A stretch of 64,000 nucleotides of DNA, from positions 183,127 to 247,126 of the forward strand of contig NBIV01000091.1 in NCBI GenBank assembly GCA_003194525.1. The letters run 5' to 3'. The DNA is from Gracilariopsis chorda. Lineage: Eukaryota > Rhodophyta > Florideophyceae > Gracilariales > Gracilariaceae. Both the position numbers and the translations under genes were made by a program. The notes beneath the pieces are model-generated. The model had not been told where the DNA came from and ran no database searches. It saw only the letters and a program-made list of their open reading frames with translations. Below, piece by piece: positions 4,422 through 64,000 of the stretch (position 1 is the first letter of the stretch; each line of letters opens with the position of its first letter).

Positions 4422-4633
4422 ATGCTTGAAGATTGTAGGAGCTCAAAATGCTTGATTACCAACAAAGCATCTCCTTATACCGCACAAAATGCTCAGAGAT
4501 CAGAATTCATGGCGGAAATACTGAAGAAAGTGAGCAACACGAACGCCATTGTTGAGAAACGATGGACTCAAAATCTTCGTTCAACTACGGTCAGAAGTCT
4601 TCGAACCAAAAAAGGGAGTGAAAAATTGGACAT

Positions 4634-16416: not shown

Positions 16417-19071
16417 CTATGCAGACGTAAACATTGGTATATGGGTAGCAATAGCACCAGATTTGTTTTGAAACAGGTCATTGAACGTAATGTTAGGCAT
16501 AACGGAACGGAAAAAGGCGTACTCGAGGTAGAGCTCTTGATAGTTCAGATGTCCTGAGCTATGCAGAATTCTTGTTAGTTGCAACCAGAAGCTATCAAGT
16601 ATATCAGTGTGGCCTGTTCTAGACAGAATGTGAAGGCCAAGAATAGGAAGTAAGCAATTGAATAACACAATCCCCACTATATGATTTCCATTGGGACAGT
16701 AGGAGAATAATTCAGATACTCTCTCTCGCAAGAGCTTCCCTGCCTAGACTGTAGCCTCGGTTACACGCTCACTTGTGCATCGCAACAGAGTTGTCGTCAA
16801 CGAATTGCGATCTGGAGAGTTTTGACAACAATATACGTTCTTAATAGAATCTGCCAAACCAGGAGACTCGGATAAAAGAAGGTCCGATGTATGTATCAGC
16901 ATTGTAGTGCAAATGCTGAACAGAAGGCCCCTGTTGTTTCGAGCGTGTGCATGCTTTAAAATATTATCAATCTGACTATCTGACAGCCCTGAGCTTGATG
17001 CCAACTCCTTAAGCCCCATTCCATGACGCATCTCTTTACAAAGAGGAAAGAGACTTTGCTTTTCCACGCGAAACAAGCCAGGAAACCGCACAAGCCATTC
17101 ACATATACGAATCTGCTCTGGCTCGGCAGACACCCTGCCGCTGTTCTTATCGTAGATTTCCTTGTACGACTGTCTCCATATTTTAACCAAAATTCTATAC
17201 GTGAGTTGATCACCGCAGACAATTACGTATCGTGGGCTACCTAGTCTCCCGGGTTTAAGTCACGCATTGATGAGGGCCATTTTCTGATGTATTGTGAGTA
17301 TGTCAGCGACACTGTCTCGGCTAATATCCATAAACAAAATTTCCTGGTCAGACAACGAGGCATCTGTAGCTTCTAGGCCGCCATGGTGTTTGAATGAAGC
17401 AAACAATAACCTTCTTGGACTAATTCCCTGATCTTTGTAGTCTAAGGCAGTATTGCGCCGCTTGTAGCTTTGTTTTCTGGCTGGAACTCCAAGCAGCATA
17501 TCTCGATGCTCATAAGCAACGCCAAAGGCGACGTCAAAGAAATCACTCAGGATTAAATTGTCGTCTTTGGAGTTCAAGTTGGCCACAAATTCCTCTCTTG
17601 AACGAAGCACAAGACGAAGATCACACCACTCTGAAGGTTCTGTAGATTGATTTGTCGCCTTTGTGTGCAAGGGTGGCCGAATAGCTTCATTTTCAGATCG
17701 TTAGCGAGGACCACGCTCGTTCAAACGACGTTTCCTACGGATTTGAGTCACCGCTTGGGTAACAGTACCACTAATAATGGGAGTAGTCTTCCCAGCGGCC
17801 TTAACGCTATGCAGTGGTAACATATCAAAGCTACCTATCTGGACGGTGATAACTCTGTTGTTCAAATTAGCTTCCGAAAACGCACCGCACTTTGCCTCCT
17901 CTCTTTCACATATTAATTGCTTACGGAACCTTTCCATACAGTCATAAGAAGAAACGAGACCGAGCGCATGCAAAACACTCGTCCATGATGGCGAACTTTC
18001 TACAATCAAAGAAATAGAGAGTAAAACCTGTAGCGGTCCAACTGCCGTTCGACAACGGGAGAACAAAATCTGCTCAATAACCTTTCATAATCGAATACAA
18101 AGCAAGAAGTCATACCTTGACACACTGTTTTCAGAATCAGCTCCAGTCATTGAATTCTCTGCAAAAGTGTCCAATACCTCACAAGGCAGCTCCGACTCAG
18201 AATTAAACACTGGAAATATGTCTTTCAGGCTCTTTCCCTGCGAGGCAGCACAAGCTTTCCAACATGCTATCAGTTTCGCAGATGGCATTTTCAAAACAAA
18301 AGCGGACCACAAAGGGGTTGGGATGGCAAGAATTTCTTCAGAGAGAGATTATGTTGCACGGTAGTAGTCATATTTTCGTGATCAAAAACGGTTCGAAACG
18401 ATTGACAGCCTTCTTGCCCTGTTCGTCGAAGATAGTGTAGCTTCATCTTCAGCACCGAGATGAATAGACTGAAAAACTGTTTCTGTAACAGAACTGCCCA
18501 TACTGTAGCACCTTAATTTTCTTGATAACGAAAACAAGTGGACGTCTTTAGCTGCAAAGACAGGTCCAAGGCGCGACACTAAGGTCTTGATTGTAATTGA
18601 TTTAGATGACGAACTTCCTATATGCAATAAGTCCTTTCTAGCCACATATACTGCTGACAATGGCAGGAAGCCGGCTGTAGGGGTTTCTTTGAAAAGTGTC
18701 AAAGCTTTTGACCTCAACTCACTTGCAACTCTGTTTGCATCGTTGTTAGCTTCAATAAACGGAGAACCGTTAGCGTTGCTATGCAGCGCTTAAAAAACGC
18801 AGTCTACCAAGCACCTATTGAAAACATCCGTAACCTTGATGCTCTCCAAATGGGGTTTGGATCCGTTCTTGTCTTTTGAAATAATGTACCGACAAGTTGA
18901 ACAAGCCTGCAATCCAGTAACTTGCTCAAGGCGTAGTGTTCCTTCACAATGGCTGGCGATCGCCTCATTTAATGCAAAAAACCGTTCTGCGTCCTCAAGA
19001 GTATTAGTTGTTATACCAGATAATGGTCTCAAAACTCGCTCCGAACCACAACAGCCTCTGTTAGTAAACAC
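16417..19071 (-). pseudogene. Transposon ORF1: DUF6589-like protein with seven in-frame stops and no frameshift
   Basis: One reading frame runs 2655 nt (885 codons) on the minus strand. It is interrupted only by TAA 18790, TGA 18382, TAA 18349, TGA 18085, TAA 17701, TGA 17260 and TAG 16744 (plus-strand left coordinates of the stops). Family-like blocks keep their order: an N-terminal cysteine cluster (TGLQACSTCRYI), a central LHALGLVSSYDCMERFRKQL (animal relatives have a LHxLGFCxSYxEVxRFE pattern), and the diagnostic VIVCGDQLTYRILVKIWR, which matches the VGDQLT block of DUF6589 proteins. A helical C-terminal part follows. DUF6589 proteins occur in fungi and animals next to transposon ORFs. 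The role is unknown; presumably it acts in mobility. Assignment rests on recalled motifs, not on a search. Confidence 0.5.
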
Positions 19072-19320
19072 ACAAGATCCTGCTTTCTTTCCATTTTTCG
19101 CCGGATCTTCTTTCTCGGCAACATCACAGGAGTGTCTTGTTTGATTATAGTGATATCGGCAAAACTTTGACTCCGCAATTCGAGAGAGCAGAAATCGTGC
19201 ATCTTCAATTGTAATGCCGGAGCGATGGCTGAGATTTGTGCAAAATAACTATTGAATCTGTGTAGGAAATAGTAAGACTTTAAAAAGAAAAGAGTTTCTT
19301 ATGACAGATTTCATTGTATC

Positions 19321-20128
19321 TGTGGTGCAATGCCCCAAAGGGGAAAAACACCGAAAGACGTCCGGGATCTTCCTCTCACGAGGTGAACCCAGTTCGGTAG
19401 AGCCCTCCCAGAGGTGTCACGGCGAAGCCGGTTTGTAAGACCAGGGACACCTGTCGCGACTCGCGCAGGGAGGTGAAGGCGAAGAATCGGTATCCGCGTG
19501 AGCGGGGTGTGATCCTCAGTAGAGGTATGTTTCCACGTAAGTGGGGGGGGTGTGAGCGGATGCGCACACGAGGGCCGCGGATAGCGGGAGGTGCTACCCT
19601 AAAAAGGGGAAAGAGGAAGGACGAAGTGTGTCGCGAGAGCGACGAGCAGATACGGCAATGCCGGTGGACAGGACTCCCTATACAGGGCGAAACACCAATA
19701 TGATTGGAATAATTATACTCCCAATGATGGGTCTCTTTTAGATGTGCAAGGGGGGTGAACTTCCGTACACTACGGTGCTTCCCTCCAAGGAGGAGTTGAG
19801 AACACGCGGAGGCGGTAAATCTCAGAGCCAATTCCCCAGGTTGGGGTCCCTTGTTGGGGAAGGTTTACTGGTGCGACGGCAGTGCGCCGTCGCACTAAGT
19901 ACTAGCTTCCCAGAAATGGGTGTGAAAATAATAAATAAAATTAACTAAAATACTCCACATTCCGTGGCAACATCCATTACTGTGGCCAACCGCCAATTGA
20001 CCCAAAACCGTGTCCCACGTGTCCATACCCACCATTGTGGGGCGTAGTTCATATACACACTACACAACCGATAATATCGGGAAAGCGTTCAAGTACCCAG
20101 AATCCCTCCCTCAGGGCGTTGCACTACA
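19321..20128 (-). repeat. C1 3' LTR (808 bp)
   Basis: It starts TGTAGTGCAA and ends TTGCACCACA on the element strand. It differs from the other LTR at about five positions: three transitions and two C/G transversions, and both transversions lie inside hairpin stems. Hairpins are regularly spaced, for example CCCC-AAA-GGGG 19333, CCTC-TCAC-GAGG 19372, CCGC-GTGA-GCGG 19495, CCTC-AGTA-GAGG 19514 and CCAC-GTAA-GTGG 19533. Confidence 0.95.
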
Positions 20129-20140
20129 TATCCCCCCCTA
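20129..20140 (-). other. C1 polypurine tract
   Basis: On the element strand the sequence just upstream of the 3' LTR is TAGGGGGGGATA. It is in the expected position for priming plus-strand DNA synthesis. Confidence 0.8.
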
Positions 20141-20383
20141 AGACGGGAAAACGACCGCGGACGCGGAGGGTTCCCAGACGAAAATGGGTGATAAAAGCGC
20201 GTATGCCGTCTCCGGTTCTTCTTTCCTGGCATAGCCGGCTATTGTAGTATAGTGTTGTGGGGGGCTAGCTGCTCCCTTAAATAAACTTTCCCGTTTAGAA
20301 CGGTGATTCTCGTTTGAGTTCCCCGTCTTCGACGGACCTTGCCTTGTTATCCTTTCCTTTCGCTCTCCGCTCGCGCGGCAACG

Positions 20384-23224
20384 TTACCCAACTTGGGCAT
20401 TAACCAGCGTGGCTGGGGCTGCAGTTCCCGTTTGACGGTGGTATCGCAGGACCTGCGACCGCGGGAGGTGTTCAATTGGCTCCCACGTATCCCCACTGGG
20501 GTCGTACCCGTACCAGCGGACGCGGTATTGTAGAATACCATCCTGGTCCCAGGTGTGTCCGACAAGTCGGTCTACTACGAACTCTCGTTCGTAGACCTGC
20601 CGGCCGTGCCGGGTGGTGGTTGTACTTCCCTGCGGGGGCTGCCCGCTGTGCGGTATAATGTCCCTTAGCAGGGTGTTCGGCGATAACTCCGACGTTGCAG
20701 TGCGCTGTCCTAGTGGCCGCTGCTCATGCGGAAAAATATCCCTCAAGAGGGTGTGTGGTGTCACGGTTTTCCCCGGCAAGTCACTCCCCATTGGGGTGTC
20801 GTTGTTCCCGTCTTCACGGTAGGCCGGGCGAACCGCCAGTCGGCGGGGGACTTGGGCTCCGCCTTCGCGGTTGAGCTCACGAACCGCGAGTTTGCGGGAA
20901 GATGACCGCTCCTGCGGGATCGGCATTTCCACAATCCCCTGGGGGTTCCCGTGCGACACGGTGATTGGGTGGCAAACCGCCTCCCTGCCAGGCGCACGAG
21001 CGCTCTGCACCATACGTTCCGGCGACGCCGTGGTGTCCCCGGCTACTGACGGGTTGCCTGGGGCTAACTCCGGTACACCGGTATTTTGGTCAAAATTCCC
21101 CTTTGGGGGGTTCTGGGCAGGTGCCGATGACACCCTTTTCAGGGGAATTGCCGCTGAGCGCAGTGCACCATCTCCGTGAGGAGGAGCAGCGTCCGGTACG
21201 ACCGGTTTCGAGCGTGCGATGGCGCACGTTATTCCCGAGTTCCTCGGTTCTTCGCCGCAGCGATGTGGGGGTTGGCGCAAATTATTCCCTGTAGCGGGGG
21301 CTTTGATTCCGTCAACGACGGGAGGCGTTTCCGGTGCTTGCGAGCCAGGGCTTAAAGCTTCGACTGCAGCTTGGCCGCCTTTTTCCCCAAGAGGGGTGTG
21401 GGTATTCCCCTGTGAGGCCGGCGTATCTAGGCGCCCCTTCTCCGCAGGGCGCAGGTCTGATCGGCCTGATTGAACCGCTTCCGCGGTGACTTCCGCCAAC
21501 GGCGGCTTCGAGGCATCGGGCGATTGCCTTTCCGCTGCTGCGGTATTGGAGTGAGGCTTCTCGTTTTCCCGTGACAAACGGTGTATTTGCCGCTTTTGCG
21601 GGGCCTGCGCGTCTGGTTCCTGTTGCACAGCACTGCCCGGGAACGGGGGATTAGTGTAGCGTGACATACTCCGTGCTCCACGGTCAGTGTTCCGTATGTT
21701 ACGGTGTGTTTCCCGTTGCGACGGTGATATCGTTCCTCGAAAACGAGTGTTCTCCTCCCCCTCCTTAGACGGAGCGGCGGGATAAGGGATAACATTCCCC
21801 GCCTGGCGGGTATAGATGCGCACCAGTGGGGCAGACGTGGTAGGGGCGGGCGCTGAGGGGCCCGAATTACCCGGCTGAGCCGGTGAGTCCGGCAGAGTCG
21901 GTAGGTCTGAGAGTCCCCAGCTGGGATGTGGTAAAACCGTAGGTCTAGTACTCCCGGATTGTTCCGGTGTAGCGGAGTCCGTAGAAACGGGGTTGCCTGG
22001 ATCCAGGACTACCTCTGACGAGGGAGGAGGGGCAAGGACAACATGATCACGGGAAATCCGTTCGTGCGTGTCCCCCATCTCTACCACGACAGTGTCGGCG
22101 TTAACAGAGATCACCTTGAAGGGTCCATCCGCCACAAGCGAGAGTTTGTGACGCTTCTCCCGTTCCGGGTTGTAGTATTCCTTCCTGATGAAGACGTAGT
22201 TATTTGCCCGAATCGGGGACGGTTTTCCTCGCACGCGAGCGTCAAAATCCCGCTTGTAAGCGGCTTGGGCCCGTGCCATAGACTTCCGCGCAGCGGGGAC
22301 CAGCTTGGAAAGCCATTGCTTCCATTGCTGCCGGTAGATACCCACAGATGGGAAATTGTCCAAGGTAGCTTGGGGTTCCAGCGCCACAGGCGGGGGTCTT
22401 CTAGATAGAACCAACTCGAATGGCGAAACTCCGGTAGTCCGTTGTACCTGCGTGTTGTACGCGTAGGTTAACGAATCAGCGTACATGTCCCAGTTCTTTG
22501 GGTGGTCTGCGACGTAGGAACGTAACGCCGCGAGTAACGTCCGGTTAAACCGTTCAAATTTCCCATTACACTGGGGGTGGTAGGTAGTCGTGAACAAGTT
22601 CTTGACATCCAGGATGCGACAAACATCCTGGAAGAAGTTGCTCACGAACTGCTTCCCGTTGTCAGAGAGCACCTCTACAGGGGGACCGTAGACAAAAATC
22701 CAGTGCGTCACCAGAGCCTGGGCCACCGTGAGAGCGGTTATCCTCCGAAGAGGGACAGTCCGTACCAGCTTAGAAAAGCGGTCGGTAATGACAAGTAGAA
22801 ACTTGTTTCCACGTTTCGTGGTAAGTAATGGTCTGAGAATATCGATCGCGATAAACTCGAGCGGCGCCCTTGCGGGGAATAGTTTCATCTTCTTCGCATT
22901 TTTGCGGTGTTTGACGCGATTCTTCGCGCATTCGCCACAAAACCGCACAGTTGCGTAGCAATCCACCGCCATTGCGGGCCAATAGAAATCCCTTCGCAGG
23001 GTTAGGTAGAGTTTCCTCCCACCTGGGTGACCTCCAATGTGGGCGTAGTGTGATAGATGTAACACCCGCGATTGCAGGGAATGTGGTACCACAATCTGTG
23101 GGCGGGCTTCGACCTTTCTTACGAGGTAGCCTTTGTCGTTTACCCCGAAAGGGAGATCTTCACCACCGTTGATACGGGCCCGAATTCTCGTACAGAATGG
23201 GTCGCCGAATTGTTCTCGGATCAT
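20384..23224 (-). CDS. C1 integrase with C-terminal chromodomain (pol, 3' part)
   Basis: A 946-codon frame. It opens with the HHCC zinc region (HYAHIGGHPGGRKLY then CGECAKNR). The DDE core follows: FIAIDILRP, VEVLSDNGKQF and GKFERFNRTL supply the D, D and E. The GPF-type tail (GPFKVISVNADTVVVE) comes next, then a long proline/serine-rich linker of roughly 400 residues. The chromodomain comes last (YEREFVVDRLVGHTW, LQYRVRWYGYDPSGDTWEPIEHL), keeping the aromatic cage residues Y/W/W. It would direct integration into chromatin carrying methylated histone. The frame is in phase with the RNase H ORF upstream; only TGA at 23279-23281 separates them. The linker is the most hairpin-dense coding part. 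Confidence 0.9.
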   Translation of the reverse strand: MIREQFGDPFCTRIRARINGGEDLPFGVNDKGYLVRKVEARPQIVVPHSLQSRVLHLSHYAHIGGHPGGRKLYLTLRRDFYWPAMAVDCYATVRFCGECAKNRVKHRKNAKKMKLFPARAPLEFIAIDILRPLLTTKRGNKFLLVITDRFSKLVRTVPLRRITALTVAQALVTHWIFVYGPPVEVLSDNGKQFVSNFFQDVCRILDVKNLFTTTYHPQCNGKFERFNRTLLAALRSYVADHPKNWDMYADSLTYAYNTQVQRTTGVSPFELVLSRRPPPVALEPQATLDNFPSVGIYRQQWKQWLSKLVPAARKSMARAQAAYKRDFDARVRGKPSPIRANNYVFIRKEYYNPEREKRHKLSLVADGPFKVISVNADTVVVEMGDTHERISRDHVVLAPPPSSEVVLDPGNPVSTDSATPEQSGSTRPTVLPHPSWGLSDLPTLPDSPAQPGNSGPSAPAPTTSAPLVRIYTRQAGNVIPYPAAPSKEGEENTRFRGTISPSQRETHRNIRNTDRGARSMSRYTNPPFPGSAVQQEPDAQAPQKRQIHRLSRENEKPHSNTAAAERQSPDASKPPLAEVTAEAVQSGRSDLRPAEKGRLDTPASQGNTHTPLGEKGGQAAVEALSPGSQAPETPPVVDGIKAPATGNNLRQPPHRCGEEPRNSGITCAIARSKPVVPDAAPPHGDGALRSAAIPLKRVSSAPAQNPPKGNFDQNTGVPELAPGNPSVAGDTTASPERMVQSARAPGREAVCHPITVSHGNPQGIVEMPIPQERSSSRKLAVRELNREGGAQVPRRLAVRPAYREDGNNDTPMGSDLPGKTVTPHTLLRDIFPHEQRPLGQRTATSELSPNTLLRDIIPHSGQPPQGSTTTTRHGRQVYEREFVVDRLVGHTWDQDGILQYRVRWYGYDPSGDTWEPIEHLPRSQVLRYHRQTGTAAPATLVNAQVG

Positions 23225-23278
23225 TTCTTCCGGTGATACCGGTACAAAGTTTCCCGGTAACGGGTTCTCTGATTTATC

Positions 23279-24898
23279 TCACGATGCGAGTAGTTCGTCA
23301 AAATCAGCATCCTTGTCCAAGGTTTCTGGCCTAGCCTCGACGGCATATTCCGGATCATCCGGGTCTATAGCCATGAAGCATGGGACTTCATCATCCTCCG
23401 TTGGGAGTGCTTTCCCACTTGTGGGTAACCGCGATAAAGCGTCGGCCTGGGTGTTCTGCGCACCCTTTTTATAAATGACTTGAAAGTCATATTCCGCGAG
23501 GCGGAGTCTCCAGCGCATGAGGCGTCCCGACGGGTCGGAGATATTCATCAACCACCTCAATGAGGAATGATCCGTGTACACGGTGAAGTGAATTCCCATA
23601 AGGTAGGGGCGCAGAGTGGTCATCGCCCATACGACGGCGAGGCACTCTTTCTCCGATACGGAGTAGTTCCGCTCATGAAAATTGAGCGAACGTGACCAAT
23701 AACCAATTGGATGTCGTTCCCCCTCGGGGGTGGTTTGAAAAAGAGCACACCCGACTTGGTACTCGCTCGAGTCCGTATCTACGGAGTATGGCAACCCAAG
23801 TTTTGGGAGATGTAGGATTGGTGCTGATGTGACAGCCTCCTTTAAGGAGTTAAAAGCTTCCGATTGCTCGGGCGTAAATGTTCTCAGTTTTGGGGGTTCC
23901 CCTTTCGCAACAACGCGTTCAGGGGCGCTGCAGTATCCGAAAAGTTCGGGATAAACCGTCGATAGACGTTGACCAGCCCCAGAAAGGAGCACAGTTCCGT
24001 TTGAGTACGGGGTTCTTTCGCCTCAACGAGGGATTTGACTCGAGCTTTCTCGATCGCTAACCGTCCAGGACGGATAATGTGACCCAGATACTTCACAGTA
24101 TCTGTGAAAAACTCGCATTTCCTCAACTTGAGGGTAATTCCTGCATCGCGGAGTACGGTCACCACGTCTCGGACGTGAGTGAGATGGTCGTCCAACGAGT
24201 TGGAGAAGATGATAATATCATCAAGGTAGACCAGACAACTCCGCCACTTAAAGCGGTTGAGTAGAATATCTACTGCACGCTGAAAGGTGGCGGGGCGTTG
24301 GTTAACCCAAATGGCATCCGCTTGAAGCGGTACGTTCCTGCATGGCAGGTGAATGCGGTTTTGTCGCGATCCTCCTGTCTGACAGGTACTTGCCAATATC
24401 CCCAATTGGCATCAAGGGCCGTGAACACGGTGGCGTCTCCAAGGGAGTCAATGCACTCGTCCATACGAGGGATGGGGTACGTGTCCCAACAGTCACGGCA
24501 TTGAGCCGGCGGTAGTCGACACAGAACCTCCAGGTTCCGTCGGCCTTTAAAGCCAGTACAACTGGGGATGCCCAGGGTGATTGAGCGGGCTCAATCACAC
24601 CTGCGCGGAGCATCTTGTCCACCTGGGACTGCTCCTCTTCCCGAGCTTTCGGACCTGCCCTGTAAGGGGGTTGTGCAACCGGTCGCGCACCGGGGATTAA
24701 ATTGATCCGGTGTTCCGTTGCATCAATCTCGCCAAGCGAGCCATCCCACATTGTGGTGAATTCCCGTAACATAGTACGGAGTTTGTCGCGGTGCGACTCG
24801 GGCACGTGGCTGAAGTCCAGCGCTTCAAGTGCTTTTTCCGGATCAATCCGGTCATTGCTCGATGGAGCATTGTCCTGTGGAACAGGTGTGGTTCGCAA
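23279..24898 (-). pseudogene. C1 reverse transcriptase and RNase H, three single-base frameshifts
   Basis: RT domain 1-3 is read from 24898: QSPWASPVVLALK and WRFCVDYRRLNAVT, after which a one-base shift breaks the frame. The second frame (24464-24270) has MDECIDSLGDATVFTALD and MPFGLTNAP. A further one-base shift leads to the third frame (24405-23884) with LVYLDDIIIFS, where YLDD is the catalytic box. A third shift near 23.9 kb leads to RNase H (23992-23279), with VDTDSSEYQVGCAL, TVYTDHSSLRWLM and NTQADALSRL. All catalytic motifs are present, so each shift is a single recent lesion or a sequencing error. Confidence 0.85.
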
Positions 24899-25071
24899 TT
24901 CCTAGTTACTCGGTATGTTCGGCGCTGAAGTAGCGGTTTCCTCCCCCTCCTTAGACTTGACGTCTTCGGACGGCGGGGCGAACTCCTCAGAAGAGGTGGT
25001 AACTCCGAGTACATCGGCGGCTGTCATCTTTGTTGGCAGCATTCCCATAGGATGGGGGGTTACACTCCCAA

Positions 25072-25941
25072 TTACTTGGTGTTTGACCAGATACTGGGGT
25101 GTTTGCCAAGGTTGGCAACCAATATCCGGAAAGGGACATCCGGGGAAATGGAGATAATTCCATTAGCCAGCGCCAGCTGGGATTTCTCGTACAACGAGGC
25201 GAGGGGTTGTATAACCCGAAGACCGTGTTGACGGGAATTTACCTGCACCCAGACTTGGGACTCAGGTGGTATAGAAACCGAGGCAGTGACGCGGAGCTTA
25301 GTGGACTCGCGGGACGCGGGCGGTGGTTCCTGCGCAGCAGGGAGCGGAACTTGTTTCCGAGAGGACCGCTTTAGCGGGCAGCGAACAATCGGAACCGACG
25401 ATCCGTCTTCAAGTTCTACACCCCTGAGGCGGGGCCTGATTGCGTGGACAAATCTGTCGCAGTAATCACATCCCAGTATGACTGGTGCTGCCAATGAACG
25501 GCAAACGATGAAGTCCAACTTCACCACAGAGGTACCAAGTCTCACGACGAGGTCCACTGTGCCCACCGTTTGTAACGGATTGTTGTTCGCATCCGAAATG
25601 TCGGGGACCGCGTCAGAGCGGATACGCGACCGCACAAGCGGGGGTAACAATGATTCCACAACAAAGTTGTGGCCTGCACCTGTATCCAGGACGGTGAGAA
25701 ACCTCACCATAAACTGGGGGTCAAGGCCAAGGTCGGCATAGACCTTATAATTGCGCTTGGCCAAGACCAAGACTCTACCGGGAATCCGGGGATTTTTACT
25801 CCGTATCCACGGGCGACGCAACACACCGAGGTGCGCAGAGTCCGCGTCAGCGGTGTCTTTCCTCGAGAGGACTTTCACCGGGGAGCGAGGCGACGACGCC
25901 TCGGGCGCCAACAGCCTCGTTCTTGAGGACGCCTCTCCCAA
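25072..25941 (-). CDS. C1 aspartic protease region
   Basis: A 289-residue frame with the retropepsin triad context LTVLDTGAGHNFV (D-T-G) at about residue 87 and the second conserved block VILGCDYCDRF. It lies in the -1 phase relative to Gag and stays open upstream across the Gag stop codon, so a -1 frameshift at or before the Gag end (GGAAAAC at about 25962-25968) could make Gag-Pro. It is followed after a gap and phase change by RT. The first codon TTG at 25941 is not a plausible initiator. Confidence 0.75.
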   Translation of the reverse strand: MGEASSRTRLLAPEASSPRSPVKVLSRKDTADADSAHLGVLRRPWIRSKNPRIPGRVLVLAKRNYKVYADLGLDPQFMVRFLTVLDTGAGHNFVVESLLPPLVRSRIRSDAVPDISDANNNPLQTVGTVDLVVRLGTSVVKLDFIVCRSLAAPVILGCDYCDRFVHAIRPRLRGVELEDGSSVPIVRCPLKRSSRKQVPLPAAQEPPPASRESTKLRVTASVSIPPESQVWVQVNSRQHGLRVIQPLASLYEKSQLALANGIISISPDVPFRILVANLGKHPSIWSNTK

Positions 25942-25958
25942 AGGGGAGACTCCCTCAG

Positions 25959-27332
25959 TTAGTTTTCCGCCTTCGGCGGTGGGTTGGTTTCCTCGACAAA
26001 GAGTGCTTCATCCCGTTGACGGGGGTTTCTATCCGCATAAGCGGGGGTTGCAACGGATGGTTGCGTGATCTCCCGAATCGGGGTGCATGAAGCTTGCCGC
26101 GCACGCGGGGTCTGTGGTAGGGCGTGGGAAAAGTCCGTTTTAGCACGGAGGTAGGAAGCCGTCGGGACGGAACGTTTCTCCTCTGGAGTGAGGGCCTCAT
26201 AATTTGCCACCACCTTGGCCATATCCTTCAGTGAACAAATACACTGAGGAGAGGTATGGCCATGGGCATAGCACAGGTGGCAAATGAGAGCCAGCACCGC
26301 GACACGCGGATTATTATTCCGAGTATCGGAGAAGCGAACCGCAGGGCGGGTGTCAGTCCATCCAGGCCGTTGATAACGGGATTGACCGTTTGAAAACGGG
26401 AGTCGTTGGGGTTGAACCCGACTTTTACCACCGTATAGAACGGGATCTTCTGTTCCCGTATCATGGGTCATCTCCGTCGTTGACGGTAACTCACTGGTGG
26501 GTATCGACACACCATCCCCCTGCGCTAAACGCACGGTATCAAATCCCTGTCCAGGGTTCCCATCCGCGGTGAGCGGGAGAGAGGAAGCTTCGCTTTCCAG
26601 CAACAACGCCTTGGCGGATTTAGACCGATTGTTCGGAGTTCTTGCACGAAGTGCATCCCCTTCCGCTCGAGCGTGTTGGACCAGCTCGAGGTAGGTGATC
26701 CTTCGCTTGTCCTCCCGATAACGGTTAACTAAACTCCGGATTGCCGGGTCAAGACCATCAATGAACATGGTACTGCGCTCCCCAGCGGGGTATACGTTAC
26801 CACATCTGTGGAAAGCCTTGTTAAGGCGCACCGAGTAATCGGTCTCGGTCTCTCCAGCACGCTGGCGTGTATCTCGCAAAGTGAGGTTAGCCTGCTGAAT
26901 AGCGGTGTTGGTGGCGTAGGAGCGCAGAAGATACTGCACAGCCTCCGGCCAGCAAGTAACTCCTCCCTCGGAGGCGCGAGAAGATCCTCTGACAGAGGTG
27001 TATTGGTCCTCCGCCACTCCCCGTAAGAAATACGGTAAAGCCAAATAGGCTTGTCCCTCATTCATACCGAGGATATCGTCCTCCGCTACAAAGCGGGATA
27101 GGAAATCCAGTACTAGGACTGGGTCCTCTCCAGTAAAATACTGGTTGCGGAGCGAGAGCTGCATTCGCTTAATGCATTCTCGCACCTTTCCCGTACCACG
27201 GGGCGTACGTCCAAGTGGCGAATCTTCAAGCCGGTAGTACCGGTATGATAAAAGCTTCCGGTAATCCGGGTTTGTCGGTTTCAATTCCCGGAGACCGGGG
27301 TGTCTTCTCCCCTTCTGGCGGGTTCGGACCAC
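25959..27332 (-). CDS. C1 Gag, capsid and nucleocapsid part
   Basis: The 457-codon frame contains a helical retrotransposon_gag-type capsid region (about residues 40-225: YFTGEDPVLVLDFLSRF, AYLALPYFLRGVAEDQY, ETETDYSVRLNKAF). Near residue 360 there is one CCHC knuckle, CHLCYAHGHTSPQC (C-x2-C-x4-H-x4-C), for RNA packaging. The first codon is GTG. The same phase is open upstream to 28133 except for one TGA (27375-27377), so this and the next ORF were probably one Gag. Confidence 0.85.
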   Translation of the reverse strand: MVRTRQKGRRHPGLRELKPTNPDYRKLLSYRYYRLEDSPLGRTPRGTGKVRECIKRMQLSLRNQYFTGEDPVLVLDFLSRFVAEDDILGMNEGQAYLALPYFLRGVAEDQYTSVRGSSRASEGGVTCWPEAVQYLLRSYATNTAIQQANLTLRDTRQRAGETETDYSVRLNKAFHRCGNVYPAGERSTMFIDGLDPAIRSLVNRYREDKRRITYLELVQHARAEGDALRARTPNNRSKSAKALLLESEASSLPLTADGNPGQGFDTVRLAQGDGVSIPTSELPSTTEMTHDTGTEDPVLYGGKSRVQPQRLPFSNGQSRYQRPGWTDTRPAVRFSDTRNNNPRVAVLALICHLCYAHGHTSPQCICSLKDMAKVVANYEALTPEEKRSVPTASYLRAKTDFSHALPQTPRARQASCTPIREITQPSVATPAYADRNPRQRDEALFVEETNPPPKAEN

Positions 27333-27374
27333 ACCTTCAGTGGCCGATGACCGCTTCGAGCGGGAGGAGTAGCC

Positions 27375-28133
27375 TCACTTCTCGTCCTCCGAGTCGGAGT
27401 CCGAGGAGCTCGAGCTAACCGAATGGTTTCGGGGTGAATCCGACGATGTCGAAGAATCGGAGTCCGAATATTTTCGGTGGTGTTTCCGTCGGTGACGGCA
27501 TTTCTTCTTCCCAGCAAGCTGGTCGTTGTGCGATGCCTCCTTTACCGGATCACCCGGGGATGGTTTGTCCATGAGGAAGAACTGCTCCAGCGTCTCCAGG
27601 CGGGCACCAATCCGATCAAATCGGGCTTTAACTCCTTCGATGAAGGCGGCGGGTTGTCCCAAACTCTCCAACACGGAGTTGACGTCAGACCGTAAAATAC
27701 GGAGTTCCTCGGCGACCTCCTTTACGGGGGTTGCCGAGACCACCTCTTGGAGGGATTTTAGTTCCCCTACAAGGGTGTCATGGGCGGTCCACAGAGCGCG
27801 GACCTGGGATTCCAGGGAAGTCCCCTGGGGGGTGTTATCGCCCGTTCCACGGGGGCTTGAAGCCGCGACAGCGGGAGCAGGCCGCGGTGCCTGGGGCACT
27901 GCGGCAACAGCCGGAGTCGATGCTGCATTCCCCTGCGGGGGTGATGACGAGGGCAAAAGGAGGTTCCGGGGTTCCCGGTCGGGGGTATCATTCCGCGATG
28001 AAGCGGCGCCAGCACGGCTGGAACTTGTCCGTATAGGGATACGGGGTACGAACCGAACTCCGGAAGTGTCCGCGTTGTCGCAGGAGCGACTACGCATAAC
28101 CACTGGCTCCGCGTCGGAGGGATTTCTCGACAT
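27375..28133 (-). CDS. C1 Gag N-terminal part, coiled coil and Ser/Asp tail
   Basis: This 252-residue ORF starts with ATG near the 5' LTR. Residues 1-100 are Pro/Ala/Ser-rich. About 108-195 form a heptad-like helical region (SLESQVRALWTAHDTLVGEL, KARFDRIGARLETLEQFF), likely a coiled coil for assembly. The end has a basic cluster (KKKCRHRRKHHRK) and a Ser/Asp acidic run. The stop is TGA and the frame continues into the capsid ORF. Nearly every 20-25 bp of the coding DNA contains a perfect mini-hairpin, such as CCGAA-TGGT-TTCGG near 27419. Confidence 0.75.
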   Translation of the reverse strand: MSRNPSDAEPVVMRSRSCDNADTSGVRFVPRIPIRTSSSRAGAASSRNDTPDREPRNLLLPSSSPPQGNAASTPAVAAVPQAPRPAPAVAASSPRGTGDNTPQGTSLESQVRALWTAHDTLVGELKSLQEVVSATPVKEVAEELRILRSDVNSVLESLGQPAAFIEGVKARFDRIGARLETLEQFFLMDKPSPGDPVKEASHNDQLAGKKKCRHRRKHHRKYSDSDSSTSSDSPRNHSVSSSSSDSDSEDEK

Positions 28134-28214
28134 GAGAAAATACCGTTACGACGGGAAACGATCACGGAACTTCCGGTGAATGAAAAAAAACCTCGTAAGA
28201 GGGAAAACAAAAAC

Positions 28215-28235
28215 CGATTCTAAGTCAGGAGACCA
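28215..28235 (-). other. C1 primer-binding site
   Basis: Three bases inside the 5' LTR the element strand reads TGGTCTCCTGACTTAG. The complement ends ...CAGGAGACCA, a tRNA 3' end with CCA. The match to a tRNA shape can be drawn back through an acceptor strand (TCAGGAG), a T-stem strand (CTAAG) and part of the T-loop (CGATT), about 21 nt. I cannot name the tRNA. Confidence 0.65.
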
Positions 28236-28238
28236 CTT

Positions 28239-29046
28239 TGTGGTGCAATGCCCCAAAGGGGAAAAACACCGAAAGACATCCGGGATCTTCCTCTCACGAG
28301 GTGAACCCAGTTGGGTAGAGCCCTCCCAGAGGTGTCACGGCGAAGCCGGTTTGTAAGACCAGGGACACCTGTCGCGACTCGCGCAGGGAGGTGAAGGCGA
28401 AGAATCGGTATCCGCGTGAGCGGGGTGTGATCCTCAGTAGAGGTATGTTTCCACGTAAGTGGGGGGGGTGTGAGCGGATGCGCACACGAGGGCCGCGGAT
28501 AGCGGGAGGTGCTACCCTAAAAAGGGGAAAGAGGAAGGACGAAGTGTGTCGCGAGAGCGACGAGCAGATACGGCAATGCCGGTGGACAGGACTCCCTATA
28601 CAGGGCGAAACACCAATATGATTGGAATAATTATACTCCCAATGATGGGTCTCTTTTAGATGTGCAAGGGGGGTGAACTTCCGTACACTACGGTGCTTCC
28701 CTCCAAGGAGGAGTTGAGAACACGCGGAGGCGGTAAATCTCAGAGCCAATTCCCCAGGTTGGGGTCCCTTGTTGGGGAAGGTTTACTGGTGCGACGGCAG
28801 TGCGCCGTCGCACTAAGTACTAGCTTCCCAGAAATGGGTGTGAAAATAATAAATAAAATTAACTAAAATACTCCACATTCCGTGGCAACATCCACTACTG
28901 TGGCCAACCGCCAATTGACCCAAAACCGTGTCCCACGTGTCCATACCCACCATTGTGGGGCGTAGTTCATATACACACTACACAACCGATAATATCGGGA
29001 AAGCGTTCAAGTACCCAGAATCCCTCCCTGAGGGCGTTGCGCTACA
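28239..29046 (-). repeat. C1 5' LTR (808 bp)
   Basis: Same length and near-identical sequence to the left LTR. At the two C/G differences this copy keeps perfect hairpins (ACCC-AGTT-GGGT at 28305-28316 and CCCTC-CCT-GAGGG ending at about 29033) that the other copy has lost. The 151-codon minus-strand frame common to both LTRs is not considered a gene. Confidence 0.95.
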
Positions 29047-29051
29047 GTATC

Positions 29052-29931
29052 GGAGAAGTCTTGATGCAAAAGTTCACGTTTCTCAGATGAAAGTTTTGAA
29101 CATATGTATTATTGACTACGACACGACTGCGAAGGATTTGCATCACTGTTCATAACTTTTGTAACCCATGCGCGAAGTTCTGCTCTTGATTTTCTTCCGT
29201 GTATTTTTGGATCGCAAATAAAACCCCAACCCGTTTGGCTGGACCGGCATGCTGTGCAAAGAAGAAGCGGTTTATACTCAATTTTTTGGAATGGATTAGA
29301 AAGAGGACTGGTGTCAAACTGTTATCGGGTTGTCCATTGTTTGTATGTCTATGTCACTGGCACTGTTAGTCGGCGGTCCGAGTTGATACCACAGGCTTCA
29401 CAGGCTCCATTTTCTGAGCTGTTCCAAGGATCAGCAGAAATCGGTTTTTGTTTTGGACTCCCAAAGCTGTTTCTTGAGTTCATTTCTTGTACAGCTTCAT
29501 GTACGAGGAGAAACCGACACAAGAAGGTTTTTCGTCTATGGGGACGGTTGGATGTACGTTATCATAAGGACTGGTGAGCATGATCGCAATTTCGAGGCGC
29601 TTTGTGGCGAGAACATGAGCGCAAACAGTGGTTTTGACGTGGAGGCGCATTGACTGCAGGGACAATTTAAAACGGCTTTGGCCTCTGATTTCCGTATTTT
29701 TCCTGATACTCGCGAACTGAAAAAAGGTATCGAAGCAGGTACCACGACCCGAACTTATCATATGCAATCATAACCACGCAGTCCAAAACTTACCTGTCTA
29801 AGCATCGATATCCCTCGCGTTCGAGATCACTTTCGGCTCCACAGACTCTCTAATTCTAAACCAAATCCAGATCTCCACTCTCTTGCAAACGCTTCTTGTG
29901 TCACGCTGTAAACTGTTTGATGTAAACCGAG
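29052..29931. other. No supported gene
   Basis: Flank between C1 and the next LTR element. Short frames only. Confidence 0.5.
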
Positions 29932-37166: not shown

Positions 37167-37757
37167 ATGAACGAAACTTGCTTCATTATTTCCCTCTTCT
37201 CGTTTCTCGCTGCAGCGAGCGCCTCCCGGAGAAATATTTTCCGCATCGACGGCCACGTTTCACACGGACTGAATACTTTCAATGCCAAGACGCTTGTTGA
37301 TCTGTCAAATGCTTCGAGTGTTTTTGAGTCTGTCGAACGGATCTATGAGATTGGCGTGCTAAACGAAAATGGAAACAACGCTTCGACCATAACAAACAAG
37401 ACTCCATTGTTCTCAAGGCTGGCCAAGATTGACGCATACGCTTACCAAACATCATTTGGGTTCCCGAAAGGAGTAGGTCCATTCAACGTTCCAATAACGA
37501 CTGTTCCAACTCTAATATTTCCATCGACGAACGTGAACGATAGAGCTTCCCCGTCTGTGTTCGAGGAGTCTTCAGATATTTCTGTGATTGGCGGCCCGTA
37601 CCTTTCCAGTTCAGCAAGTAACAACATAATACTAGGAGAATGGAACCGTATCTCGGCCAGAATAACTGGAAGATGCACGGACAATGAGGCAGTCGTTTTA
37701 GTACAAGTTAAGAACGCACTCCCGAATGGTTTGTACACCATGTGGGATGTCGGAGTT
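37167..37757 (+). pseudogene. Secreted-protein gene, 5' part, interrupted by LTR element
   Basis: ATG at 37167 begins a clear signal peptide (MNETCFIISLFSFLAAASA). The 197 codons before the insertion hold a secreted domain with several N-glycosylation sequons (NAS, NNAST, NKT), and end ARITGRCTDNEAVVLVQVKN then NGLYTMWDVGV. The frame runs into the LTR at 37758 exactly after a GTT codon. The second half lies at 43194-43517. Family unknown to me. Regular spacing of GLYTMWDVG and a following GPFGGLPN suggests a beta-sandwich extracellular protein. The insertion must abolish normal expression of this copy. Confidence 0.75.
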
Positions 37758-38123
37758 TGATGTTGAGTGTTGGCTGGCGGCGTCTACGTTACGGCGTGCT
37801 GTCAGGAAGGGAAGGGAAGGGATAGGAGCTAGACAGACAAAGAATGGGCACACCCACGCGGCTTTTTTTTCCTCTCGTGGATACCTCCGAAGCGAGTCGG
37901 AGGTTTTTATAGGCGCCCCATGCCATCTCAGTTGTCTGCCGAGATGACAAGAATAGACTATTGCGCAATCTATCAGTACTATTAAGCTAGAGTAGTTACA
38001 GTACTGAATTGACGTGTGCAAGATAATGACGTAAGAAATTCAGACGCATTTGTCGCCTAATTATACTTGTGCATTTGCGCCCAAATCTTGTGCGACGCGA
38101 CAGCCGCAGCAGATTACACAACA
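37758..38123 (-). repeat. Gypsy 3' LTR (366 bp)
   Basis: Identical in length to the right LTR; begins TGTTGTG and ends CAACATCA on the element strand. It includes an 8-bp hairpin ACCTCCGA/TCGGAGGT near 37889. Confidence 0.95.
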
Positions 38124-38159
38124 GCGCCCCGTAAGTTCTGAAGTGAGAACTGAAGATTC

Positions 38160-39827
38160 TTACATGACTGCAGCGGCTAAGTTGCGTTGCCGCTTCGTAC
38201 CAATCCGAGACAATTCTCCCAGATATTCCCTAACCAGTACAGGAACATCATCCCGCAGGGATACGATTGTGACCCAGTCCGCCTCTTCAGCCGAAAACCC
38301 CCGCCACTTTACCAACAACTCAACGGTACCTTGCTTTCTTCTGATGTCCTGAAAGCAATCGACCACCAGAAGTTCCCCTTGTTGGTAGGACAGGTAGTCC
38401 CGAAGTTCTTCGGTCACTTCAAACTCCTTGTTCCGAAAAAACTTCAGGCGCCTTCCGTGCACCTCTTGCTTCGTCCCACTCAGTAGCGACTCTACAACGA
38501 AAATGTACTCAGAACGACATTCCGCCACACGGTAGGGCCCCATCCATTTGAGAGATGGCTTTCGAGTGCGTTCTCTCTGCAGTACACCACGTAAGACAAA
38601 GTCGCCTTCTGAGAAATTGACGGCACGAACACTCGTCTTTCTTTTGTGTGATTCTACAGCCTTTCTTCGTTTCTCAGTGGATCGTGCTGCCACGTCCTTG
38701 TGCATATCCGAGAAGGCCTGTACAGTAGCGTCAATGTTATGTACTTGACGGAGGCGAATATTGTCCAGGGAGATAATGCAGCACTTCCCGTTTTCTTTGG
38801 GCGTAATTGCTGAAAGCGAAGTATCTTGCTTGTGCCCAGTGAATACTGTAAGAGGACAGCGATTACCGAGGCGTTCAAGGATGGAGCTATTCAGCGCGGA
38901 TTGTACCACCGGAAGGATACTCGGCCAGCAGTTCTGCGGAAGCTGGTACTCAGAAAGGAAAGCTCGACATGCTCGTAGCAGCTCGCGACACACCACTTCG
39001 ACAGTGCCATTCGACCAGGAGCAATACACTAGAGTGAAATGATGCGAAGACTTTGTTCTGTCCTTAAGATGACGTAAAACTTCATTCTTGAAGTGGGAGC
39101 CTCTATCGGAAACCCATTGTTGCACGACTCCAAATGCTGCAAACCACCTGATCAATTCATCGGCGACCACTTCGGCTGTAGTCTCCGTTGTAGGCACGAG
39201 CCAAATGTAGCAACTGTGGTCGTCTTTGAGCACGAGGACATAAAGAAAGTCATTCTCTGCAGGGGACATGTAGCAAAAATCGAAATGCAGCAGTTCGTTC
39301 GGCTGATTAGCGTGAAGAGCATGTCCCAACGGGCGAGGAATAGTCTTGGCTGGTTCTGTGCAAAGGCAATGGAGACATGTCTTCACAAATGACTTAAGAT
39401 CTTCATCCATTCCCTTCCAGAAGAAATAAGCCTTCGTGGTTGCTATGGTGACATTGGAGCTTCTATGCCCGCCAAGTCCGGTGTGTGCTGCGATTGCTAC
39501 GCGCAGCTTGAGAAGTTTGCAGTGCGATGGGATCCACAGAATGTCCTTATCGCTTCGCATGACGCCTTCTGACTTCCTGAAGCCCTTCGGCGGCACTTCC
39601 TTGCTCGATTACTGTGCCTGCTTGATGTCATTGAGATCAGGCCAGTCTAACTTGGGGTCTGTGCCAGGATTAATTGGTGCCACCATGAGAGCTTTAACAC
39701 GTAGAACATTGACTGCCCTTACTGTTAGCCTTGGGTTGACAGCCCAGCGGGTGAGCATGTCGGCCCACACGTTGTGATCCCCGGGCAGGTGCTCTACGAC
39801 ATACCGAAACGCACTGAGTTTGATGGC
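38160..39827 (-). pseudogene. Gypsy integrase with chromodomain, one in-frame TAA
   Basis: The frame continues from RNase H through the tether (LPGDHNVWADMLTRWA) to TAA at 39609-39611. A 478-codon ORF from 39596 follows. It has the HHCC region (AHTGLGGHRSSNVT, CLHCLC) and a DDE core (LHFDFCYM, WVSDRGSHFKNEV, WSNGTVEVVCREL). A tail domain follows (LKWMGPYRV), and a C-terminal chromodomain-like unit (LLVVDCFQDIRRKQG, LLVKWRGFSAEEADWV). Reading through one CAA/CAG-type position would restore the polyprotein, so the lesion is a single substitution. Confidence 0.85.
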
Positions 39828-41951
39828 CTAGCGCATCAATTTGCTAGCAGTCTGTCGAGCAATGCCTGGGTTTCTACCATAAGGATCGTACAGGTATACA
39901 AGGTTGGCGTGATCCGTGAAGATGTTCACTTCATGTCCGGTTACCAAATAATCCAAACGGCACATGGACTCTACTATTGCAAACCCTTCCTTCTCCGGTA
40001 CGGACCAGTTGACAGTTGATCCTGAAAACGAACCAGAGAGGAAGCATAAGGGTTCATGGTGCTGCTCTTCAATGGGCTTGCGTCGCTCTTCGATTGGCAC
40101 TTGAGTGAGAATAGCGGCCCAGTGTGAATAAGATGCGTCCGTAAAAAGGCACAGCTGATGGTTCTTCTTAGGATGCGCAAGTTTGACGGCAGCGGTCAGT
40201 TGGCGTTTGATGTCAGCGAAAGCTGCATCGTGTTCAGCGCCCCATGAGTCGGTGACGGAGAGGTTGCGCAGGGCACGTTTGGTTCTCTTTCCAACCTGCG
40301 AGTAGCAGCGTTCGAGTAATTGATGGAGAGGAGCGATGCGCTCAGAGTAAGATGGAATCGAATTTCGCATCCAGTTTGTGGGGCACACAAACTGCTGAAG
40401 CTCGCATGCCATAGTCGGCTTCTTCATCTGAACTAGGGCCTCGTAGTGACGTGGATGGTATTGTACTCCATCTGCGGAGATTATACGTCCACAAAATTGC
40501 ACTTGGCGCGCAAATAGAGTGGTCTTCACCGCATGAATCTTCAGCCCGATATCTTCGCATACGAGGAAAAACGCTTCGAGATTGGATAACAGCTCTTGCT
40601 CATTCTTCGCGTAGAACAAGAAATCATCAATCCACTGCAGCATCTTTTCTACTCGTCCCTGAAATTTGTCGGCCAGCACGGCCTGGAAGTGATTACCAGA
40701 GTCACTGCCGCCTTGTAGGAGACTTTTAGAGGAGTACACTCCAATTGGAGTCTGGATGGACATCATTTCCTGTGATTCTGCCGAAAGTGGTACTTGCCAA
40801 TAGCCGTGAGCCAGGTCGATATTGGCAAAGCACGTGCTTCCGGTGACGTCCTGGAACTTCGATTCCAGGTGTGGCATGGCGGATTGTATTCGTACAGTAC
40901 GCGCATTGGGGCCGCGGAGGTCAACCCTGAACCGTAGTTTGGTCGAACCAGGTTTTGCTACAGCGAGCGCAGGCGAAGCCCACCTGGCCGATGGGTTCTT
41001 GTAGATGGCTCCTACGGTCTCCAGTTCGCGAATGGTCTGCACGATGAAGTCTCTCTGCTGAGGCGCATAGCGTCTCTGTGTAGATCTGTAAGGGTTTGCG
41101 TTCTCAACAGGAGTGATCGTCAGGGGCAGAACGTCGACAGGTGGATCTGCGCCCAGTTTGATACGAAACACATCTCGATAGCGCTCAAGCATTGCTGTGA
41201 TCTTCTTCATACCGTTGGACGATATGCTTTGACCGTGGGCATCGGCGAGAATTTTCTCAAATGCCTTGTCAATAGACTGCTTGTCGTCCTTGCCAATACC
41301 AGCCGCCAGACATTCCGGCAAATCAATGGGGTCATCGTCAGCACTCATGTAGGACAAACCTTGATACTTGGCATTGGCAAGCTTGACGCGCTCTTCGTCC
41401 AGTTCGTCCACATGCTTGTCATGTATCTCGTTCCTGACACGAACGAGATGTTCGTTAAGGTTAAATCCAATTGAGTTGAGAAAAGGGCGACCAAGAAAAA
41501 TATCGTCCATTGGCTGCTCGACCACGAAGAATTCCACACCACGTACCCTGACAGGGATGTTCGAGCCTGGGAGAAAGATGGTAAAAGTGAGAGAAACGGA
41601 GCGAGAGGCGTGAACATTTGGGTCACCTTCCGTCTTGAAAGCACCAGCAAGTGGTAACGGCTTTTCAAAGTTCTTCACCGGAAAATCGGGTACTGCACTG
41701 AGCAGCTTACCGTAGACCACCTCATCGATGGCGCTGAAGTCTGCCCCAGAGTCGCCTAATGATACATCGAAGATGGTATCTTCCAATGCGACTCCAAAAC
41801 GACCGGCATTGCCATCAAGCGCCATGGCCTTACCAGTGCACGATTCCTTGAGTGTTTTAGCTCTCTTCGCATCCTTCTTACCGTAATCCTGCTCAAACAA
41901 TTCCTTCCTTCGTTCAGTTGATGTGTTCGGACAGTCTTTCAGGCGGTGCAC
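39828..41951 (-). pseudogene. Gypsy Gag C-terminus, protease, RT and RNase H
   Basis: A 707-codon frame. After the Gag zinc-knuckle end comes the protease with SLGDSGADFSAI (D-S-G) and DDIFLGRPFLN. RT follows: SARWASPALAVAK, RFRVDLRGPNARTV, TCFANIDLAHGYWQVPL, MLQWIDDFLFYAK (usual Y-x-DD box, here W-IDD). RNase H follows (LCLFTDASYSHWAAIL, NIFTDHANLVYLY). It ends at TAG 39828-39830, exactly where the homologous C1 sequence has Trp (LMRW). TGG to TAG is one G-to-A change. Length and order are normal for a single-ORF gypsy polyprotein. Confidence 0.85.
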
Positions 41952-41984
41952 GCCATTGCACTTGTCGTTAAGACATGGTTCAGA

Positions 41985-42761: not shown

Positions 42762-42822
42762 GACCAGGATGATCAGTGTGAACCAGTTGAAACACACTTA
42801 CTCTTTCGAAAACAAAGCGCTT

Positions 42823-43188
42823 TGATGTTGAATGTTGGCTGGCGGCGTTTACGTTACGGCGTGCTGTCAGGAAGGGAAGGGAAGGGATAGGAGCTAGACA
42901 GACAAAGAATGGGCACACCCACGCGGCTTTTCTTTCCTCTCGTGGATACCTCCGAAGCGAGTCGGAGGTTTTTATAGGCGCCCCATGCCATCTCAGTTGT
43001 CTGCCGAGATGACAAGAATAGACTATTGCGCAATCTATCAGTACTATTAAGCTAGAGTAGTTACAGTACTGAATTGACGTGCGCAAGATAATGACGTAAG
43101 AAATTCAGACGCATTTGTCGCCTAATTATACTTGTGCATTTGCGCCCAAATCTTGTGCGACGCGACAGCCGCAGCAGATTACACAACA
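42823..43188 (-). repeat. Gypsy 5' LTR (366 bp) with TATA box
   Basis: On the element strand a TATA-like CCTATAAAAACC (about 42966-42977) is followed at once by the 8-bp hairpin, a plausible core promoter arrangement. Ends and length match the left LTR. Confidence 0.95.
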
Positions 43189-45305: not shown

Positions 45306-45465
45306 GGGATACTAGCTAACCCTGGAATAGTAGACACTAGGGGTGTAGACAACGCTGAGTACTCCAGACTACCCGCGGGTCCTGAACTAACAGGTCTTCT
45401 ACAGACCAGTGTAGATTCTCGACAGTTATATTACTCGAGGTATAGCTACAAGACACACTGGTACT

Positions 45466-46375: not shown

Positions 46376-46380
46376 TGACA

Positions 46381-47690: not shown

Positions 47691-47721
47691 ATAAGAAAGA
47701 ATTGCAGACCAGGTTTGATGA

Positions 47722-51431: not shown

Positions 51432-51436
51432 TGACA

Positions 51437-63981: not shown

Positions 63982-64000
63982 GTCAATCTGGTGCTCCGTT

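Follow-up and report, generated by a model that had tools for sequence, protein, structure and literature searches.

A Ty3/gypsy chromovirus of the red alga Gracilariopsis chorda carpeted with short hairpins closed by CC...GG

Why should a retrotransposon carry short perfect hairpins from end to end, and what might read them? The question is raised by a stretch of 64,000 nucleotides (nt) of Gracilariopsis chorda DNA (assembly GCA_003194525.1, contig NBIV01000091.1, forward-strand positions 183,127–247,126), referred to here as the window, which lies at the end of its contig. The element concerned, C1, is a Ty3/gypsy chromovirus with long terminal repeats (LTRs). The original prediction had described perfect mini-hairpins running through the LTRs, Gag, linker and chromodomain of C1, differing from one another in their stems and lacking in the flanking DNA and the copia elements. 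This description was borne out: the hairpins that it quoted were present (Table 1), and motif counts across C1 confirmed their extent. Among the causes that it proposed, RNA structure used for packaging agrees with the reading that we favour below; snap-back copying by the reverse transcriptase (RT) and general ordered RNA structure fared poorly. It had missed the constant CC/GG clamp, the pitch of about 20–21 nt over C1 as a whole and the presence of the carpet in a clade of families.

The motif was defined as CC, at least two further base pairs, a loop of at least 3 nt and GG, with a total length of 11–14 nt; in C1 it takes the form of a hairpin closed by 5'-CC...GG-3' with a stem of 4–5 bp and a loop of 3–6 nt. 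C1 contained 218 hits and C2, a second carpeted family in the window, contained 45, whereas Markov versions (n = 200) gave means of 19.4 (maximum 36) and 6.9 (maximum 14), respectively. The rest of the window (49,873 nt) had 35 hits against 28 in Markov sequences. The mirror motif, GG...CC, was found 18 times in C1, three times in C2 and 28 times in the rest of the window. Counted without overlap, the hits in C1 come to 201 over its 9,726 nt. When one LTR and the interior were considered, 179 of 180 non-overlapping hairpins were distinct in sequence, and mobile hairpin repeats (GC clusters or MITE-like inserts) were rejected because the hairpins are not copies of one.

Perfect 4-bp stems with loops of 2–7 nt accounted for 645 words in C1, where Markov sequences gave 241 at first order (z = 26) and 232 at second order (z = 20). 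There was no comparable excess of direct repeats (287 against 250–263) or mirror repeats (205 against 243); same-direction complements were mildly in excess (364 against 231–233). The enrichment of 4-bp stems was 0.92-fold at a loop length of 0 nt, peaked at 3.3–3.6-fold at 3–5 nt and was close to 1-fold from 9 nt upwards, as expected if the strands really fold. Non-overlapping hairpins covered 46% of 9,525 nt, against 20–22% in five shuffles. No carpet was detected by stem counts in the copia DNA (44937–55440), and the left flank showed a slight excess only (160 5-bp stems against 128–133). The element at 37756–43120 (minus strand), which had been grouped with copia in the stem count, was likewise without hairpin excess (six motif hits, five mirror hits); by Pfam (RVT_1, rve and a weak Chromo match) it is a gypsy chromovirus.

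The hairpin excess of C1 is mainly one motif class. Stems of 4 bp with loops of 3–5 nt closed by CC...GG reached 63.0 for each loop length, where control distances gave 5.0 (12.7-fold); the enrichment was 1.24-fold for stems closed by GG...CC and 1.43-fold for those with no C at either of the two outer positions. The corresponding values for CC...GG and GG...CC were 10.6-fold and 0.7-fold in C2 and 8.9-fold and 2.3-fold in L073, a carpeted relative. Outer variants with a single C were moderately enriched outside the CC-hairpins (CG, 10.0 against 3.5; CT, 5.7 against 1.6; TC, 6.3 against 2.2; CA, 3.3 against 1.8). Among CC..GG pairs with a span of 11–13 nt, the inner pairs were complementary in 42–65% of cases when a loop of at least 3 nt was possible and in 17–27% when the loop would be shorter, which again argues that the strands really fold. 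The loop varies freely, G is frequent at the third stem position and A is frequent after the hairpin. A search of 19000–29300 with the covariance models of Rfam 15 gave no match with E up to 1.

The carpet overlies the protein code. As a control, 300 synonymous-codon shuffles were prepared for each of four open reading frames (ORFs). The integrase/chromodomain ORF (964 aa) contained 60 motifs against 11.1 after shuffling (z = 15.2), with three mirror motifs against 6.0; the RNase H ORF (247 aa) contained 17 against 2.8 (z = 8.7; mirror, 2 against 1.7), the 256-aa ORF before Gag 20 against 2.5 (z = 10.6; mirror, 1 against 1.6) and the Gag ORF (471 aa) 34 against 3.5 (z = 16.7; mirror, 4 against 1.9). 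The original prediction was to be given up if the density merely equalled that of codon-preserving shuffles; it did so in none of the four ORFs. The hairpins are built by synonymous choice within conserved coding sequence. Motif density was highest in the LTR (26 per kb), the linker (25) and the gag region (24), followed by the downstream part (23), RT–RNase H (19) and the integrase (14).

The hairpins are also ordered along the element. Their centres recur at 19–21 nt and then at 38–45 nt in C1, and at about 20–22 and 44–45 nt in C2; the CC-to-GG correlation in C1 peaks at 10–11, 32–33 and 53–54 nt. The spacing in C1 is quasi-periodic, with a pitch of about 20–21 nt. Gaps of 0–3 nt between neighbours in C1 were rare (2 observed against 18.5 expected) and those of 14–20 nt were below expectation (12 against 24), with more than expected at 4–13 nt (65 against 44) and 21–35 nt (47 against 39). 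In L081 and L073 taken together, the 4–13 nt class alone was significant (12 against 5.9).

Conservation was followed between C1 and two relatives, L029 and L073. The motif starts of C1 and L073 (71% identity) coincided at a rate of 0.315, compared with 0.022 after shifting. For stem persistence, chance stems with loops of 20–59 nt and the subset of these starting with CC were used as controls. The 4-bp stems of CC-hairpins were still fully paired in 46 of 55 cases from C1 to L029 (chance stems, 248 of 485), in 17 of 52 from C1 to L073 (46 of 444) and in 14 of 25 from L073 to C1 (42 of 376); the CC-starting chance stems gave 25/43, 5/39 and 4/31 (P = 0.0065, 0.046 and 0.0012). The remaining comparisons went in the same direction, that from L029 to C1 with the least difference (46/61 against 229/427; CC-starting chance stems, 24/38). 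In Gag, 12 of 44 stems persisted against 18 of 322.

Covariation over all stems between C1 and L073 showed nothing: the compensatory share of the changed pairs was 22/225, and that in the control was 12/122. The limitation to CC-hairpins was chosen after this null result. With it, inner pairs that had changed on both sides from C1 to L029 and L073 were paired in eight of eight cases, against 15 of 32 control pairs (P = 0.013). One hairpin is present in three states: CCAAGCTACCTTGG in C1, CCAACCTACGTTGG in L029 and CCAGCCTACGCTGG in L073. Double changes in distant, poorly aligned sequences were mixed (L087 to C1, two paired and one not; L087 to L088, two non-Watson–Crick; L081 to L087, one not paired). 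Polymorphism, counted with L024 excluded owing to poor alignment, amounted to 18 shared and 86 singleton variants in the clamp columns and 381 and 702 in the spacers, a difference that at first made the clamp look protected (see below for the control outside hairpins).

The carpet is unevenly distributed among families. Thirty RNase H loci of the C1 clade (L009–L038) had 13.4–19.8 motifs per kb, whereas 33 loci of other gypsy elements (L039–L060, L062–L066, L068, L074 and L083–L086) had 0–2 motifs each, together 27 in 106,150 nt against 67 mirror hits; a few families account for many of the 33, and two elements contributed two parts each, L074 with L085 and L084 with L086. L061 was set apart from these: nearly all of its 21 motifs lie in one stretch, in which some hairpins match the C1 LTR exactly and which is read as a nested LTR. 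The carpet is bounded near the LTR edges (L001: 1, 0, 3, 14, 14 and 12 motifs per 550 nt). In an RT–RNase H tree calculated without L055 (misoriented) and the window chromovirus at 37756–43120 (long branch), six hairpin rows were split from 17 others by a 100/100 branch; with both included, the hairpin label needed two changes. Gag loci of the same genome with 53–61% DNA identity to C1 also carry the motif, which exceeded its mirror by 37 to 7 in L081 (3.4 kb), 19 to 1 in L087 (1 kb) and 8 to 0 in L088 (1 kb). The motif was shared with aligned C1 sites in 11 of 44, two of 23 and none of 23 cases, respectively; the hairpins are mostly different ones, and the motif grammar has therefore outlived the individual hairpins. 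L085 and L086, with an unrelated two-knuckle Gag, had one and no motifs.

By sequence comparison, the carpet goes together with one Gag type that has a zinc knuckle, in a clade of red-algal chromoviruses. Of 15 aligned Gags, 12 had the knuckle, CX2CX4HX4C, in exact form, two had it with one extra residue and one (P0007) had none. A model of Gag (mean pLDDT 63) matched Arc capsid domains best, with E of about 1e-4, and is silent on RNA binding. A basic and strongly conserved stretch lies ahead of the capsid domain at about residues 21–49 of Gag (25959–27374, minus strand), with the consensus KGRKHxGLKELKPTNxLY; it is a candidate for the RNA-binding part. The search for protein relatives of Gag returned 73, eight of which are named Agarophyton chilense by source; no DNA of relatives outside this genome was found in the viral_contigs or genome_contigs collections.

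A protein that reads structure would leave a clamp of fixed sequence, inner pairs that vary but stay complementary, a steric rule for the loop and spacing in order. Since the carpet goes with one Gag type (Arc-like capsid, single knuckle), we infer that the motif may represent dispersed Gag-bound sites on the sense genomic RNA, like viral packaging signals but much denser. We give this reading, in which the RNA strand, Gag as the reader and the function are all conjectural, an even chance of being correct. The whole transcript is written around one hairpin of 11–14 nt with a CC...GG base, two or three free complementary pairs and a free loop of 3–6 nt. A protein would bind this hairpin on the genome in single-stranded form, most probably as sense genomic RNA. 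That protein would be the Gag of the element itself, and the zinc knuckle, or else the conserved basic stretch ahead of the capsid domain, would make the contact. Gag might then cover or compact the RNA in an ordered array and select it from cellular RNA. In a bolder form, which we offer tentatively and would sooner doubt than adopt, a genome-long, quasi-periodic hairpin code would lie over the protein code: at every 20–21 nt or so, or a multiple of this, one CC-hairpin would dock one Gag, the RNA would specify an ordered nucleoprotein array, and the hairpins would turn over while co-evolution with Gag kept the grammar.

Several results weigh against Gag-bound sites on sense RNA. Short-loop stems other than CC-hairpins persisted at an intermediate rate that was also above chance (83/118, 18/108 and 21/81). 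CC..GG pairs alone were kept significantly above matched non-hairpin pairs in three of eight comparisons, as were single clamp dinucleotides above their matched controls, and polymorphism did not set the clamps apart from CC/GG pairs outside hairpins (20 shared and 98 singleton variants against 57 and 216; P = 0.41). The Gag contrast depends on one unrelated family, L085 and L086 being near-identical. None of the gap classes was significant in C2. The known cis signals of Ty3 lie at the RNA ends, and nt 429–4979 are dispensable in trans, according to the part of PMC4974528 drawn on here. Folding energies showed no preference for the sense strand: at 100 nt, the mean z for C1 was -1.19 (sense) and -0.98 (antisense), and that for C2 was about 0 on both strands. 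Finally, in otherwise perfect motifs A–C mismatches were above expectation (51 against 22; P = 2e-5) and G–U mismatches hardly so (26 against 16.6; P = 0.12), with 98 other mismatches against 80; this difference would fit folding of the minus strand.

This last result bears on the possibility that the folded strand is cDNA, in which case the hairpins would act while the minus-strand DNA is single-stranded, in the course of reverse transcription or integration. A CC...GG hairpin can form on either strand, an A–C mismatch is G–T on the other strand, and G–U in the outer extension pairs was infrequent (0.046 against 0.106 in the control). The bases flanking the hairpins do differ between strands (chi-square 98), yet they also differ at non-hairpin CC..GG pairs (56), so that this evidence is weak either way. 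We know of no retroelement with ordered DNA hairpins in its cDNA, which counts against an explanation that we consider decidedly improbable. An unlikely but more credible alternative is that a host protein binds the hairpins on RNA, in the context of export, stability, control of translation or escape from silencing by small RNAs, and that the element has multiplied them to exploit or block that factor. The presence of the motif in LTRs and untranslated parts and the restriction of fixed sequence to the clamp would suit a host reader; however, the 33 other gypsy loci of the same host are without the carpet, the carpeted families have one Gag type, and mere structural shielding would not favour CC...GG over GG...CC.

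The same asymmetry tells against templated mutation, in which the RT would switch template in small imperfect hairpins and so perfect them. Perfect stems do dominate, G–U pairs are not favoured, and copying from arm to arm could also yield double changes that preserve pairing; but the clamp should then be irrelevant, in conflict with the enrichments given above for CC...GG, for GG...CC and for stems without an outer C. Neither the pitch and gap order nor the absence of a carpet from the other gypsy loci is predicted, and the hairpins are built by synonymous choice; we regard snap-back copying, as the original prediction had it, as very unlikely. General stability, its other proposal, is a poor explanation because GG...CC is ignored and C2 is motif-rich without lowered folding energy. 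A signal in double-stranded DNA (chromatin or helical phasing, with CC/GG steps about every 10.5 bp) would agree with the CC-to-GG distance peaks, but a duplex reader needs neither the complementarity of sequence-free inner pairs nor the minimum loop, and we find such a signal most improbable. Chance, base composition or codon usage has in its favour that the G+C content of C1 (0.49–0.61 in kilobases 19–28) is above that of most of the window; it is refuted, with next to no probability left to it, by the Markov, synonymous-shuffle, mirror-motif and long-loop controls, all of which fall short.

The features of C1 and C2 are collected in Table 1. C1 has paired LTRs and a target-site duplication, and its ends agree with those of the original prediction; the Pfam order RNase H, integrase, C-terminal chromodomain is that of a chromovirus Pol. 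The coding frame is interrupted in this copy. The RT domain was undetected by Pfam in the broken frame of C1 and was detected in L073. In a genome search covering 91.3 Mb, the LTR probe gave at least 40 matches at 99–100% (best 40 of 1,457 candidates) and a Gag piece at least 90 at 96–100% (best 90 of 2,580 candidates); judged by these matches, the C1 family is recent and numerous in the G. chorda genome. A protein recorded for this species, BWQ96_04085, is 100% identical to a stretch of that genome.

Table 1. Positions in the window of C1, C2 and their parts
Feature	Position	Strand	Basis or remarks
C1, whole element	19321–29046	minus	Ty3/gypsy chromovirus
Target-site duplication GTATC	19316–19320 (left copy); 29047–29051 (right copy)		Direct read
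3' LTR, 808 bp, hairpin-carpeted	19321–20128	minus	Five mismatches to the other LTR; repeat family D1
5' LTR, 808 bp, hairpin-carpeted	28239–29046	minus	16 motifs in 607 nt scored
ORF, 964 aa: integrase, long linker, chromodomain	20384–23278	minus	Pfam PF17921, PF00665, PF00385
RNase H ORF, 247 aa	23279–24022	minus	PF17917
Gag ORF, 471 aa: capsid-like domain and zinc knuckle	25959–27374	minus	Relatives with PF03732; model closest to Arc capsid domains
Zinc knuckle CX2CX4HX4C of Gag, residues 365–378	26241–26282	minus	Alignment of 15 Gags
ORF, 256 aa, before Gag in the same frame	27375–28145	minus	ORF list, motif count
Three LTR hairpins	19494–19544 (starts 19494, 19514, 19533)		Quoted hairpins at 19494–19505, 19514–19525 and 19533–19544
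Seven Gag hairpins	27419–27646 (starts 27419, 27464, 27486, 27511, 27545, 27612, 27634)		Quoted hairpins start at 27419, 27464, 27486 and 27634
Linker hairpins, 28 motif hits	20906–22023 (including 21692, 21871, 21954, 21996)		Quoted hairpins have the four starts given
C2, second carpeted family	59600–64000	minus	Truncated by the contig end; motif and mirror counts
C2 chromodomain	61690–62385		Pfam

Some further observations were made in the window and the genome. Perfect hairpins of unusual length, which have stems of 10 bp and lack the CC clamp, are present in the LTRs of C1 (19871–19895 and 28789–28813) and at 24577–24598. Two ORFs of 292 and 263 aa (59657–60535 and 60694–61485, plus strand) run antisense to the pol of C2 in the carpeted 3' part; they gave no Pfam hit, and the first has one relative, P0074, which is 57% identical over 50%. 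The copia element at 44937–55439 (plus strand) encloses a second LTR pair (46376 and 51219) and is probably a copia nested in a copia. RNase H matches recur with a period of about 5,680 nt in contigs C883, C819, C573, C1001 and C516 and of about 6,349 nt in contigs C509 and C755, which looks as if gypsy elements were arranged in tandem, head to tail.

No hairpin-carpeted retrotransposon or comparable architecture was found in the literature searched. C1 resembles other Ty3/gypsy chromoviruses in its LTRs, gag, RNase H, integrase and C-terminal chromodomain; it differs from the chromovirus at 37756–43120 in being carpeted, and it has a long linker between integrase and chromodomain. In Ty1 and Ty3, Gag is thought to select the element RNA and scattered sites may contribute; the Gag binding sites on these RNAs are not precisely defined. 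The cis signals known for Ty elements are terminal, and the part of PMC4974528 cited describes no carpet of hairpins. The selection of self RNA by LTR retrotransposons is thus poorly defined, and each carpeted element offers some 200 candidate sites. The motif can be read, its mirror serves as an internal control and several diverged families are available, so that the question is directly open to binding and probing experiments.

The genome-scale ordered RNA structure of RNA viruses, so far as the sources cover it, is similar in that structure runs along a coding genome; C1 and C2 differ in having one mini-hairpin fixed by its clamp, and in C2 the folding energy is not lowered. The closest parallel is with dispersed packaging signals. 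MS2 and other single-stranded RNA viruses have many stem-loops that share one recognition feature and are otherwise variable, and spacing matters in the model presented in the cited part of PMC6281560. C1 likewise has multiple genome-wide stem-loops with a common recognition motif, far in excess of its mirror, a constant feature and a variable remainder. C1, however, is an LTR retroelement, its constant feature is at the base of the stem (in MS2, in the loop) and it has about 200 sites in 9.7 kb; as it is known here from sequence alone, we do not assign it to that class. What the carpet does display is coding sequence densely overlain by a second code.
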